Positions 53,948-56,958 of a stretch of 64,000 bases of DNA are shown piece after piece; within the stretch, counting starts at the first letter, position 1, and each line of letters opens with the position of its first letter. Made by a program: the position numbers and the translations under genes. The DNA comes from Gemmobacter lanyuensis (GTDB taxonomy: Bacteria > Pseudomonadota > Alphaproteobacteria > Rhodobacterales > Rhodobacteraceae): assembly GCF_014652355.1 (NCBI RefSeq), contig NZ_BMYQ01000005.1, positions 1 through 64,000 on the forward strand. The letters run 5' to 3'. The notes below the pieces were generated by a model. That model saw only the letters and a program-made list of their open reading frames with translations. It ran no database searches and was not told the origin of the DNA.

Positions 53948-55525
53948 TCAGCCCGCGTCGCGATAGTTGACCGATTTCACGTCATCGCCGGGGGCGGTTT
54001 TCTTGCGGCGTTCGATCAGGCGGTTCAGCGCGTTCACATAGGCCTTCACGCTAGCCACGATGGTATCCGTGTCGGCCGAAGCGCCGGTCGCGATGCGGCC
54101 CTCTTCCTCGATCCGGACCGAGACGGTCGCCTGCGCGTCGGTGCCTTCGGTCACGGCGGCCACCTGATAGAGCTGCAGCCGCGCCTTGTGCGGATAGAGC
54201 ATCTTCACACAGTTGAACGCCGCATCGACCGGGCCGTCGCCGGTGGCATCGATCGAATGCTCCACACCGTCGATGGAGAGGGTCAGCTCGGCCTCTTGCG
54301 GGCCATCGGTGCCGCAGATCACGCGCAGACGCTTCACCTGCAGGGTGTCATGGGTCGAGGTGGTTTCCTGATCCTTCATCAGCGCGATCAGGTCATCATC
54401 ATAGACCTCTTTCTTGCGGTCGGCCAAAGCCTTGAACCGCACGAAAACATCGTTCAGCTGGTTGTCGGCCAGTTCGAACCCCAGCTCTTTCAGCTTGGCG
54501 CGCAGCGCGGCGCGGCCCGAATGTTTGCCCATGGCGATATTCGCCGCCGAGAGGCCGATGGTTTCGGGGCGCATGATCTCAAACGTCTCGACGTTCTTCA
54601 GCACGCCATCCTGGTGGATGCCGCTTTCATGCAGGAAGGCGTTCTTGCCGACGATGGCCTTGTTGAACTGCACCGGGAAGCCCGACACGGTCGAGACCTT
54701 GCGGCTCAGGTTCATGATCTTGGTGGTGTCGATGCCGGTCTGGAAGGGCATGATGTCATTGCGCACCTTCAGCGCCATGACCACTTCCTCCAGCGCGGCA
54801 TTGCCCGCACGTTCGCCCAGACCGTTGATCGTGCATTCGATCTGACGGGCGCCCGCCTCGACCGCTGCAAGGCTGTTGGCCGTGGCCATGCCCAGGTCGT
54901 TGTGGCAATGGGTCGAGAAGATCACCTCATCCGCGCCCGGCACCCGTTCGATCAGCATGCGGATCAAGTCGGCGCTTTCGCGCGGGGCGGTATAGCCCAC
55001 GGTATCAGGGATATTGATGGTGGTGGCCCCGGCCTTGATGGCGATTTCGACGACGCGGCACAGGTAATCATGTTCGGTGCGATAGGCATCCATCGCCGAC
55101 CACTGCACGTTGTCGCACAGGTTGCGCGCATGGGTGACCGTCTGGTGAATGCGGTCGGCCATTTCGTCCATGGTCAGGTTCGGAATGGCGCGGTGCAGCG
55201 GCGAGGTGCCGATGAAGGTATGGATGCGCGGGCGGGCGGCATGTTTCACCGCTTCCCAGCAACGGTCGATATCCTTGAAATTCGCCCGGCTCAGGCCGCA
55301 GATGGTGCTGTTCTTCGACCGTTTGGCGATTTCGCTGACGGCGGCAAAGTCACCCTCGCTGGCGATAGGAAAGCCCGCCTCGATGATGTCCACGCCCATC
55401 TCGTCCAGCATGCTGGCGATTTCCAGCTTCTCTTCATGGGTCATGGTCGCGCCGGGCGACTGTTCGCCGTCACGCAGGGTGGTATCGAAAATCAGAACGC
55501 GGGGTTGGGCGCTGGTCTCGGTCAT
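53948..55525 (-). CDS. leuA: 2-isopropylmalate synthase
   Basis: A 525-residue enzyme that condenses acetyl-CoA with 2-oxoisovalerate, the first committed step of leucine synthesis. The DRE-TIM barrel begins with FDTTLRDGEQSPG near residue 11 and includes the metal-site SRANF and STHCHNDLGMATANSLA near 205-220. The C-terminal LeuA dimer/allosteric domain (about 385-500) binds leucine for feedback control. The ATG at 55525 was chosen from the MTETSAQPRVLIFDT start; a GGAC weak site precedes it. A leader peptide with leucine codons lies about 75 bases upstream. Confidence 0.96.
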   Translation of the reverse strand: MTETSAQPRVLIFDTTLRDGEQSPGATMTHEEKLEIASMLDEMGVDIIEAGFPIASEGDFAAVSEIAKRSKNSTICGLSRANFKDIDRCWEAVKHAARPRIHTFIGTSPLHRAIPNLTMDEMADRIHQTVTHARNLCDNVQWSAMDAYRTEHDYLCRVVEIAIKAGATTINIPDTVGYTAPRESADLIRMLIERVPGADEVIFSTHCHNDLGMATANSLAAVEAGARQIECTINGLGERAGNAALEEVVMALKVRNDIMPFQTGIDTTKIMNLSRKVSTVSGFPVQFNKAIVGKNAFLHESGIHQDGVLKNVETFEIMRPETIGLSAANIAMGKHSGRAALRAKLKELGFELADNQLNDVFVRFKALADRKKEVYDDDLIALMKDQETTSTHDTLQVKRLRVICGTDGPQEAELTLSIDGVEHSIDATGDGPVDAAFNCVKMLYPHKARLQLYQVAAVTEGTDAQATVSVRIEEEGRIATGASADTDTIVASVKAYVNALNRLIERRKKTAPGDDVKSVNYRDAG

Positions 55526-55569
55526 GTCATCTGTCCTTGGTCTCTGGTTTCTCCTGCGGGCGCTGGACA

Positions 55570-55605
55570 CCTCTGAGCGGTCGCACCCGAAGGCACGCTC
55601 AGAGG
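55570..55605 (-). promoter_or_regulatory. Leader hairpin overlapping the end of the leucine leader
   Basis: A perfect 10-bp inverted repeat (55570-55579 with 55596-55605) caps a 16-base loop in which CC-TTCG-GG can fold as a tetraloop hairpin. Its 5' arm overlaps the last codon and stop of the leader peptide, so a stalled ribosome would change its folding. No T run follows, so it may affect translation or early transcription rather than be a simple terminator. Confidence 0.7.
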
Positions 55606-55685
55606 CAGCTAAGGAGAAGCAGGCCACGGGTGGCCTGGGCGCAATGCGATGCGCGAACGAGGATATGATCGTGTCCCGTGGTCAT
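55599..55685 (-). CDS. Leucine-rich leader peptide of leuA (leuL)
   Basis: A 28-codon reading frame from ATG at 55685 to TGA at 55599. Codons 22-25 all encode leucine (CTG CTT CTC CTT), with further leucine codons at 9 and 28. This is the classical pattern of an attenuation leader: ribosomes that stall on leucine codons when leucyl-tRNA is scarce change folding of the following hairpins. A second hairpin, arms 55620-55627 and 55630-55637, lies just upstream in the leader. A TATAGT box ends eight bases before the ATG (55699-55694), so the mRNA probably begins at or near the start codon. Confidence 0.7.
   Translation of the reverse strand: MTTGHDHILVRASHCAQATRGLLLLSCL
55620..55637 (-). promoter_or_regulatory. 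Hairpin inside the leucine leader frame
   Basis: A perfect 8-bp inverted repeat CAGGCCAC/GTGGCCTG with a two-base centre lies over codons 17-22 of the leader, immediately before the leucine run. It would be melted by a ribosome stalled on the leucine codons. Confidence 0.6.
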
Positions 55686-55693
55686 GGGTCGCG

Positions 55694-55699
55694 ACTATA
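55694..55699 (-). promoter_or_regulatory. -10 box of the leuL-leuA promoter
   Basis: TATAGT on the minus strand, eight bases ahead of the leader ATG. No good -35 hexamer is seen in the pyrimidine-rich stretch upstream. Spacing places the transcription start within a base or two of the leader ATG. Confidence 0.55.
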
Positions 55700-55747
55700 C
55701 CGGGCAGATCAGGAAAGAAAAGGGGGGCCGCAAAGAAAACGGGCGGC

Positions 55748-56797
55748 CTAGCCGCGCTCCGGATCGTGATAGCGGTGCTGCGCGCCAAGGCGGTCGGTGA
55801 TGGCCCAGGCATCGCCCTCGGGCGTGGCATGGGCAGGGGTCAGCGGCACCTTGCCCGCCCCGCCCGGAATATCCAGCACATAGGTCGGCAGCGCGAGCCC
55901 CGAGAGCCTGCGCCGCAGTTCGGCCATCAGGGCGCGGCCCTCGGCGATGGTGGTTCGGAAATGGCTGGTGCCTTTGGCCAGATCGCAGTGATGCAGGTAA
56001 TAGGGCTTGACCCGGTTCGCCAGAAGCTGCCGGAACAGCGCCTCAAGCGTATCGGCATCGTCATTCACCCCGCGCAGAAGCACGCTTTGCGAAAACATCG
56101 CAATGCCCGCGCGGTTCAGACGGCGCAGCGCGGCGCGGGCCGCCGGGGTCAGTTCATCGGGGTGGTTGGTGTGGATCACCAGATGCACGGGCAGGTCGCG
56201 GTCCAGCACGGCCAGCATCGCATCATCCATCCGGTCGGGCGCCACCACCGGCACCCGGCTGTGCAGCCGAACCTGCAGCAGATGCGGGATTGCCTGCAGC
56301 CGGTCGATCACCGCCCCCAACCTGCGCGGTGAAAGCGAGAGCGGGTCCCCCCCGGTCAGAATCACCTCGCGGATCGCGGGGGTGCGGGCGATGTAATCCA
56401 GCGCCAGCGTCAGATCCCCCTCGGGCAGCGGCCCGGCCGCCCCCACGGTTTCCCGGCGAAAGCAAAAGCGGCAGTAAACCTCGCAGGTCTGGGTGACAGC
56501 GAGGATCACCCGGTCGGGGTAGCGATGCGTCAGCCCCGGCGCGGGGCTGAAGGCCGTGTCCCCGATCGGGTCGGCCAGTTCCTCGGGGCGCAGGGTCAGT
56601 TCTTCGGCGCGGGGCAGGAATTGCCGCGCCACGCCCGCGCTGTGCAGCGCTGTCTGCATCTCGGGCGTGATCCGCAGGCGGAAGGTCTCGGTCACTGTCT
56701 CCAGTTCGGCCGCGCCCGCCGCGGGGACGATGCCCTGCGCCACCAGATCCGCCACGCGGGTGATGGATGCGGACGAAGGGGGGCGGGGATCGGTCAT
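55748..56797 (-). CDS. Lysine 2,3-aminomutase-like radical SAM protein (EpmB-like)
   Basis: A 349-residue radical SAM enzyme. Cys105, Cys109 and Cys112 form the CxxxCxxC cluster motif (CEVYCRFC). The PLP-binding lysine of the aminomutase family is expected at Lys316 in DIPGGAGKVPL. Size (349) is close to EpmB (about 340), which makes (R)-beta-lysine for elongation factor P, not to catabolic lysine aminomutase (about 416). The partners efp and epmA are not seen here. A role in EF-P modification is inferred. It is divergent from the dacB-like gene. Confidence 0.82.
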   Translation of the reverse strand: MTDPRPPSSASITRVADLVAQGIVPAAGAAELETVTETFRLRITPEMQTALHSAGVARQFLPRAEELTLRPEELADPIGDTAFSPAPGLTHRYPDRVILAVTQTCEVYCRFCFRRETVGAAGPLPEGDLTLALDYIARTPAIREVILTGGDPLSLSPRRLGAVIDRLQAIPHLLQVRLHSRVPVVAPDRMDDAMLAVLDRDLPVHLVIHTNHPDELTPAARAALRRLNRAGIAMFSQSVLLRGVNDDADTLEALFRQLLANRVKPYYLHHCDLAKGTSHFRTTIAEGRALMAELRRRLSGLALPTYVLDIPGGAGKVPLTPAHATPEGDAWAITDRLGAQHRYHDPERG

Positions 56798-56958
56798 GCT
56801 GGGGTCACATCGCGCTGTCAGGGGAAATCCGGCCGCGTCCCCTAGCCCAAACCCCACCGGAACGGAAGGCTGTGCCGTTCACATCGCGCGGCGCAGGGTT
56901 TTCCGAATGCCGCGCGGACGCTATGCCTTTTGCAGACGGTTCAAGGGGTGAGTCTGCG
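56798..56958. other. Divergent promoter region of the aminomutase-like and PBP4-like genes
   Basis: A 161-base GC-rich spacer. No gene or clear site was recognised; start-proximal promoters for both directions must lie here. Confidence 0.3.

Follow-up and report, generated by a model that had tools for sequence, protein, structure and literature searches.

Transcription attenuators are usually built from a leader peptide with a run of codons such as leucine codons, together with alternative helices, and in Gammaproteobacteria the leu operon leader (Rfam Leu_leader) controls the leu genes through a leader peptide with leucine codons. In Actinobacteria, the LEU element was proposed to bind a protein ligand, with ML1624 as the candidate (Seliverstov 2005, PMC1262725); a protein was favoured there because mutations in the leuA leader of Streptomyces coelicolor had been reported to behave unlike classical attenuation. 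For M. tuberculosis, leuA-leader RNAs of 85, 65 and 45 nt have been described and taken as a sign of attenuation (PMC3526491), and for C. glutamicum a leuA leader peptide is on record. A literature search returned no account of such an element in Alphaproteobacteria; it did not cover the surveys Vitreschak 2004 and Lopatovskaya 2010, so that an earlier mention is possible.

Here we describe an element upstream of leuA in Gemmobacter lanyuensis, located in a stretch of 64,000 nucleotides (hereafter the window). Judged from sequence comparison, this cis-regulatory element is real and conserved widely, and the description that suits it best is that of an alphaproteobacterial LEU element variant. 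The two have in common the position upstream of leuA, a leader ORF with a leucine run, the lack of an obvious terminator and a pseudoknot, the last supported here in Rhodobacterales only. In the LEU element the basal stem pairs the leucine codons with the leuA Shine-Dalgarno, whereas here the corresponding helix (P1) pairs them with the pre-start region and often stops short upstream of the Shine-Dalgarno; 31 of 66 loci show an overlap with it, but the window does not. The present element differs further in belonging to another phylum, in preceding a TIGR00973-type leuA and in carrying the leader stop codon inside the 5' arm of a hairpin (P2). With the gammaproteobacterial Leu_leader it shares a leader with leucine codons, but it has no T run after the hairpin and no Rfam match. 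A leaderless amino-acid leader peptide, as is probable here, is also described for an alphaproteobacterium in the case of the rnTrpL/trpL attenuator of Sinorhizobium meliloti, which, unlike the present element, concerns tryptophan and yields a small RNA (PMC10117765).

The leader reading frame and its putative promoter

All features described below lie on the minus strand and are given in window coordinates. The leuA gene (2-isopropylmalate synthase; TIGR00973, 670 bits, over the cut-off) occupies 53948..55525, with its ATG at 55525 and a Shine-Dalgarno, AAGGA, at 55534..55538. The initial annotation had placed a leader frame from 55685 to 55599 with leucine at codons 9, 22-25 and 28, and the window sequence bears out these positions. 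The ORF (55599..55685) has 28 codons and translates to MTTGHDHILVRASHCAQATRGLLLLSCL followed by a stop, about 75 nt from leuA; codons 22-25 (55611..55622) read CTG CTT CTC CTT. By eye, the TCCTT of these leucine codons could form an alternative 5-bp pairing with AAGGA of the Shine-Dalgarno.

Across 70 loci the leader frame was open over 20 codons in every case, compared with 28 and 27 loci for the other two frames. Leucine density was 5.43 per 10 codons in the leader frame vs 1.0 and 1.2 in the others, an enrichment that is partly due to selection because leader detection required at least three leucines among the final eight codons of that frame. The rare leucine codons CTT and CTA together made up 174 of 405 leucine codons in the leaders vs 209 of 2561 in leuA. 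Instead of an uninterrupted leucine run, eleven non-Rhodobacterales leaders (L097-L099, L101, L102, L104, L106, L109, L116, L150 and L157) had a CTTCGACTTA core (Leu-Arg-Leu).

A -10 box, TATAGT (55694..55699), precedes the leader, and CTTTTC at 55717..55722 is a candidate -35 box; among the aligned loci, T at -35 and T at -34 from the leader ATG were each 87% conserved. Start codon and box were picked jointly, taking the best box within 4-15 nt, and a -10-like box with 4 or more of 6 positions in agreement was found in 67 of 78 loci (no start was obtained for L039, and that of L064 is implausibly long). It lay 7 or 8 nt ahead of the leader ATG in 55 of these 67, a spacing from which the leader is probably leaderless, with an ATG that coincides with or adjoins the first transcribed nucleotide and is read without a Shine-Dalgarno. 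The leuA leader of S. lividans is also described as leaderless (PMC8079986). In the window, the end of the upstream gene (55748-56857), which has Pfam matches to Radical_SAM and LAM_C (lysine 2,3-aminomutase), is 49 nt from the -10 box.

The His-Ile codons of the window leader are spelled CATATC (55662..55667). This motif occurred within the first 36 nt of 36 of 75 leaders, in 24 of them at offset 15, near codons 6-7. Exact CATATC accounted for 31 of 36 His-Ile pairs, which suggests a constraint on the nucleotides rather than on the peptide. As a general promoter element it was rejected, the pattern TATA-ATG-CATATC being found solely at leuA in the window's genome.

A conserved hairpin encloses the leader stop codon

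The initial annotation had described a perfect 10-bp hairpin whose 5' arm contains the leader stop, and this was confirmed: the 5' arm of P2, CCTCTGAGCG (55596..55605), with the TGA inside it, pairs throughout with the 3' arm, CGCTCAGAGG (55570..55579). In alignment A3 (80 loci, five weak antisense matches left out), which was fitted to P2, 97.1% of P2 cells were paired and both partners had changed at 8 of the 10 pairs, more than in any of 500 shuffles or any slid control. The MAFFT alignment A1 (77 loci) had 97.7% of cells paired, with changes in both partners at 3 of the 10 pairs.

The stop codon itself varied, with 30 TGA, 4 TAG, 2 TAA and 0 TGG in a set of 36 loci (one locus counted twice), and TAG or TAA in place of TGA was matched by a compensating change in the opposite arm. 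These compensated changes speak against a leucine-sensing regulatory protein that binds the RNA and makes the leader peptide secondary, an explanation to which the strongly conserved sequence in and around P2, as well as the Streptomyces mutation results as reported, would lend themselves (PMC1262725). The same architecture is found in Alphaproteobacteria, however, and close homologues of ML1624 were reported from Actinobacteria only (PMC1262725); we consider such a protein switch improbable.

The lack of a T run after P2, which the initial annotation had also pointed out, held across the loci: only 1 of 78 (L065) had at least five T in the following 9 nt, and P2 was rejected as an intrinsic terminator on this ground. 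Three weak terminator-like matches were found on the minus strand of the window region, of which P2 is not one. A transcription attenuator, perhaps Rho-dependent, in which the leader ribosome sets whether transcription ends before or early in leuA, would have its usual anatomy here, a leucine-run leader peptide with alternative helices. The short leuA-leader RNAs seen on Northern blots of M. tuberculosis may be counted in its favour (PMC3526491), and are compatible equally with early termination or with processing. It is opposed by the missing T run, by the distance of about 75 nt between leader stop and leuA and by Rfam, which gave no match in the window at the gathering cut-off (Leu_leader and T-box included) and, for 18 loci at E up to 1, a single match at E 0.51 to an unrelated sRNA. 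On balance, termination of transcription appears unlikely to be the regulated step.

One of the three terminator-like matches is the repeat CAGGCCAC/GTGGCCTG over codons 17-22 (55620..55637), perfect over 8 bp around a loop of 2 nt, which the initial annotation had proposed as a first hairpin. It is present in the window as described and, since the loop has only 2 nt, amounts effectively to 7 bp with a 4-nt loop. A repeat of at least 7 bp was found in 6 of 71 loci vs 1.8% of shuffles, a slight excess, and as a functional arm this hairpin was rejected for want of conservation.

Covariation of the leucine codons with the region before the next start codon

The leucine codons and the stretch just before the start codon of the first gene are the partners of a second helix, P1. 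In the window its 5' strand, TTCTCCT (55612..55618), lies within the leucine codons and its 3' strand, AGGAGAA (55549..55555), upstream of the Shine-Dalgarno; the 3' pairing spans -33 to -18 from the leuA start, the 7-bp core ends 24 nt before it and the Shine-Dalgarno is at -13. Within the window's genus the 3' strand varies and is still complementary to the leucine codons; by eye, it again lies upstream of the Shine-Dalgarno. Further examples are TTCTTACG/CGTAAGAA in Paracoccus, TCCTAAGCC/GGCTTAGGA in Roseovarius and TTCTGCTT/AAGCAGAA in Neomegalonema.

In permutation tests, in which some effects of relatedness remain, the mean energy was -11.93 kcal/mol for own pairs vs -9.23 kcal/mol for permuted pairs, with 0 of 2000 permutations as low (75 loci, that is 78 minus L050 and L062, with no start found, and L074, too far). 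The locus's own 3' region was the best partner of the leucine run in 6 of 75 loci and among the top five in 20, with a median rank of 10; as it is so rarely the single best partner, the P1 signal is a statistical one. With the 5' window slid along 66 Rhodobacterales loci (additionally without L063, the rhizobial L079-L084 and the near-duplicates L035 and L057), peaks appeared at the leucine run with z -9.8 and -9.0 (0/1000 permutations), flanked by shoulders of z -3.2 and -2.8, and five other windows from i-60 on ranged from -1.3 to +1.3; the window at offset -70 was ignored, its energy being meaningless. The same peak was found outside Rhodobacterales in 32 alphaproteobacterial loci, with z -3.9 (0/1000) and neighbours of -3.0 and -2.6, after removal of 4 near-duplicates, 5 loci by distance, 9 of Rhodobacter type and 3 lacking a core match; before near-duplicate removal the value was z -4.1 (36 loci, one present twice as L108 and L126).

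The P1 3' strand overlapped the best Shine-Dalgarno in 31 of the 66 loci. Four of the 66 loci (L019, L024, L027 and L047) have a further frame separating the element from leuA, and in all four the 3' strand overlapped the Shine-Dalgarno of that frame, although the 41-codon frame of L047 may not be a real gene. The frame in L024 (Yoonia), with P1 on its Shine-Dalgarno, has 55 codons. A gene of 117-118 codons stands between element and leuA in L019, L027, L057, L088 and L091; the L019 product has a Pfam Cupin_2 match (E 1.7e-12), and the 118-codon frames of L088 and L091 resemble this cupin gene.

A pseudoknot in Rhodobacterales

The P2 loop contains GGGTGC (55583..55588), which can pair with GCGCCC (55558..55563) downstream of P2. 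This window pseudoknot includes one G-U pair, its wholly Watson-Crick part being CGGG/CCCG only. The LEU element has in addition an alternative hairpin that shares its basal stem; here, by eye, a GCC/GGC pairing within the loop is possible. Pairing of the P2 loop with the first 24 nt downstream was supported in 70 Rhodobacterales loci (z -5.9, 0/2000), among which pair changes such as GGTGC/GCACC and CCGGGC/GCCCGG occurred. In the MAFFT alignment 78.2% of pseudoknot cells were paired, partly a register effect. Outside Rhodobacterales the pseudoknot had no support, with z -0.6 in 36 loci (one twice) and z -0.4 in 32.

Distribution of the element

An in-frame leucine-rich leader ending in a P2-type hairpin was present in 77 of the best 80 loci from 596 leuA relatives, in support of the leucine leader-peptide element upstream of leuA that the initial annotation had proposed. 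The three remaining loci are a diverged copy (L068; R1 E 0.0012), a locus almost without upstream DNA (L075) and one in which no leader was seen (L072). Hosts of these best 80 loci were mainly Rhodobacteraceae and their relatives, with Bradyrhizobium and other Hyphomicrobiales also represented.

Model R1 matched 33 of 385 alphaproteobacterial genomes (E 0.001), and leuA lay downstream in all 30 loci fetched from these 33 matches. The covariance model R2, built from 80 loci, matched 94 of the 385 genomes (E 0.01) at one place per genome; as most R1 loci are among its training loci, the R2 search is not independent of the R1 search. Of 85 R2 matches compared, 80 preceded the leuA domain by 29-159 bases; the other five had no listed leuA place. 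The leuA cut-off was exceeded in 184 genomes, and 80 of the 151 with a leuA place at hand had an R2 match; 20 of the 71 without one were viewed by eye, revealing a diverged element in 11 and none in 9. The element was found in 36 of 37 Rhodobacteraceae genomes, so that the conserved leader frame and paired arms that the initial annotation had suggested looking for in relatives do exist. A draw of 299 Pseudomonadota gave 44 matches, all in Alphaproteobacteria, the number of the 299 from outside this class not being shown. Both R1 and R2 found a single copy in the window's genome. In G657, one of the 36 Rhodobacteraceae genomes, another contig has a second match, which also precedes a leuA (56% identity with that of the window) and is perhaps a contamination.

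Proposed mechanism

Conserved in position and frame, and covarying in P2, P1 and, in Rhodobacterales, the pseudoknot, the element is fairly likely to be a ribosome-sensing leucine attenuator that controls translation of the first gene on the leuA transcript. Transcription would begin no more than about 2 nt from the leader ATG. When leucine is plentiful, the ribosome would clear the leucine codons, terminate at the stop inside P2 and depart, after which P2 and the pseudoknot would fold and the freed leucine codons would form P1 with the stretch that directly precedes, or overlaps, the Shine-Dalgarno of the next gene. P1 would thereby close a compact domain and hinder initiation. Under a shortage of charged leucyl-tRNA, a ribosome stalled on the leucine codons would mask the 5' strand of P1, and leuA would be translated. 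In this scheme we infer the stalling, the direction of the response, its dependence on leucyl-tRNA and that the step acted upon is initiation and neither transcription nor decay. The guess in the initial annotation of translational control, or of a structure not yet recognised, is supported; P1, the pseudoknot and a promoter that sets the start of the transcript at the leader start codon or beside it had not featured in that annotation, whose interpretation as a whole is partly supported.

In a nested-fold simulation of 74 loci, accessibility of the Shine-Dalgarno was 0.48 when free and rose to 0.61 once a ribosome occupied the leucine run; the gain did not differ significantly from that of chimeric controls (0.131 vs 0.088, p = 0.19), and in the window accessibility dropped from 0.71 to 0.54, opposite to the expected direction. 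This outcome, like the uncovered Shine-Dalgarno of the window P1, would suit a conserved stem serving mainly in mRNA protection or processing, with the leucine-rich frame sensing general translation and not leucine. Such a role is nevertheless very improbable in our view, given the confinement of leucine enrichment to one frame (partly by selection) and the location upstream of leuA of every element whose neighbourhood was compared. For the translational attenuator, there is better support for closure of a domain beside the initiation site than for direct masking of the Shine-Dalgarno, because of the partial overlap of P1 (31 of 66 loci), its position in the window and the null simulation.

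Relationship to the actinobacterial element

A leader with a leucine run was found at five of seven actinobacterial leuA-like loci (L085, L117, L118, L119 and L122, not L120 and L121; the shorter homologue L086 left aside). By eye, these five leaders and the rhizobial L123 and L124, which have the other leuA type, carry a hairpin at the same place. The purely alphaproteobacterial R2 was compared with these seven leader-bearing loci, all with a leuA not of the TIGR00973 type, in a 31-kb search; it matched the leaders of Nonomuraea (E 1.6e-4) and Microbacterium (E 0.003) and, weakly, that of Sinorhizobium (E 0.17), and left those of L085, L117, L122 and L124 unmatched. A possible 7-bp loop pseudoknot, GAGGAGC/GCTCCTC, was noted by eye in L123 (Sinorhizobium) and L124 (Shinella).

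These similarities suggest that the alphaproteobacterial and actinobacterial elements are akin; the R2 matches are no proof of kinship, since complementarity between leucine codons and a Shine-Dalgarno restricts the possible sequences, and the likeness may possibly have arisen by convergence. We put forward tentatively that Alphaproteobacteria and Actinobacteria might share one ancient or transferred leucine switch, in which leucine codons sequester the next initiation region, and that the LEU element might be a widespread ribosome-operated translational attenuator rather than a lineage-specific protein site.

If the proposed mechanism is true, an RNA element without an Rfam match would set leucine synthesis in many Alphaproteobacteria, including Rhodobacter and its roseobacter relatives and Bradyrhizobium. 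It would offer a clear case, backed by covariation, of codons doubling as a regulatory pairing strand, and the way in which the LEU element works in Actinobacteria, so far unsolved, would become testable in easily handled bacteria.
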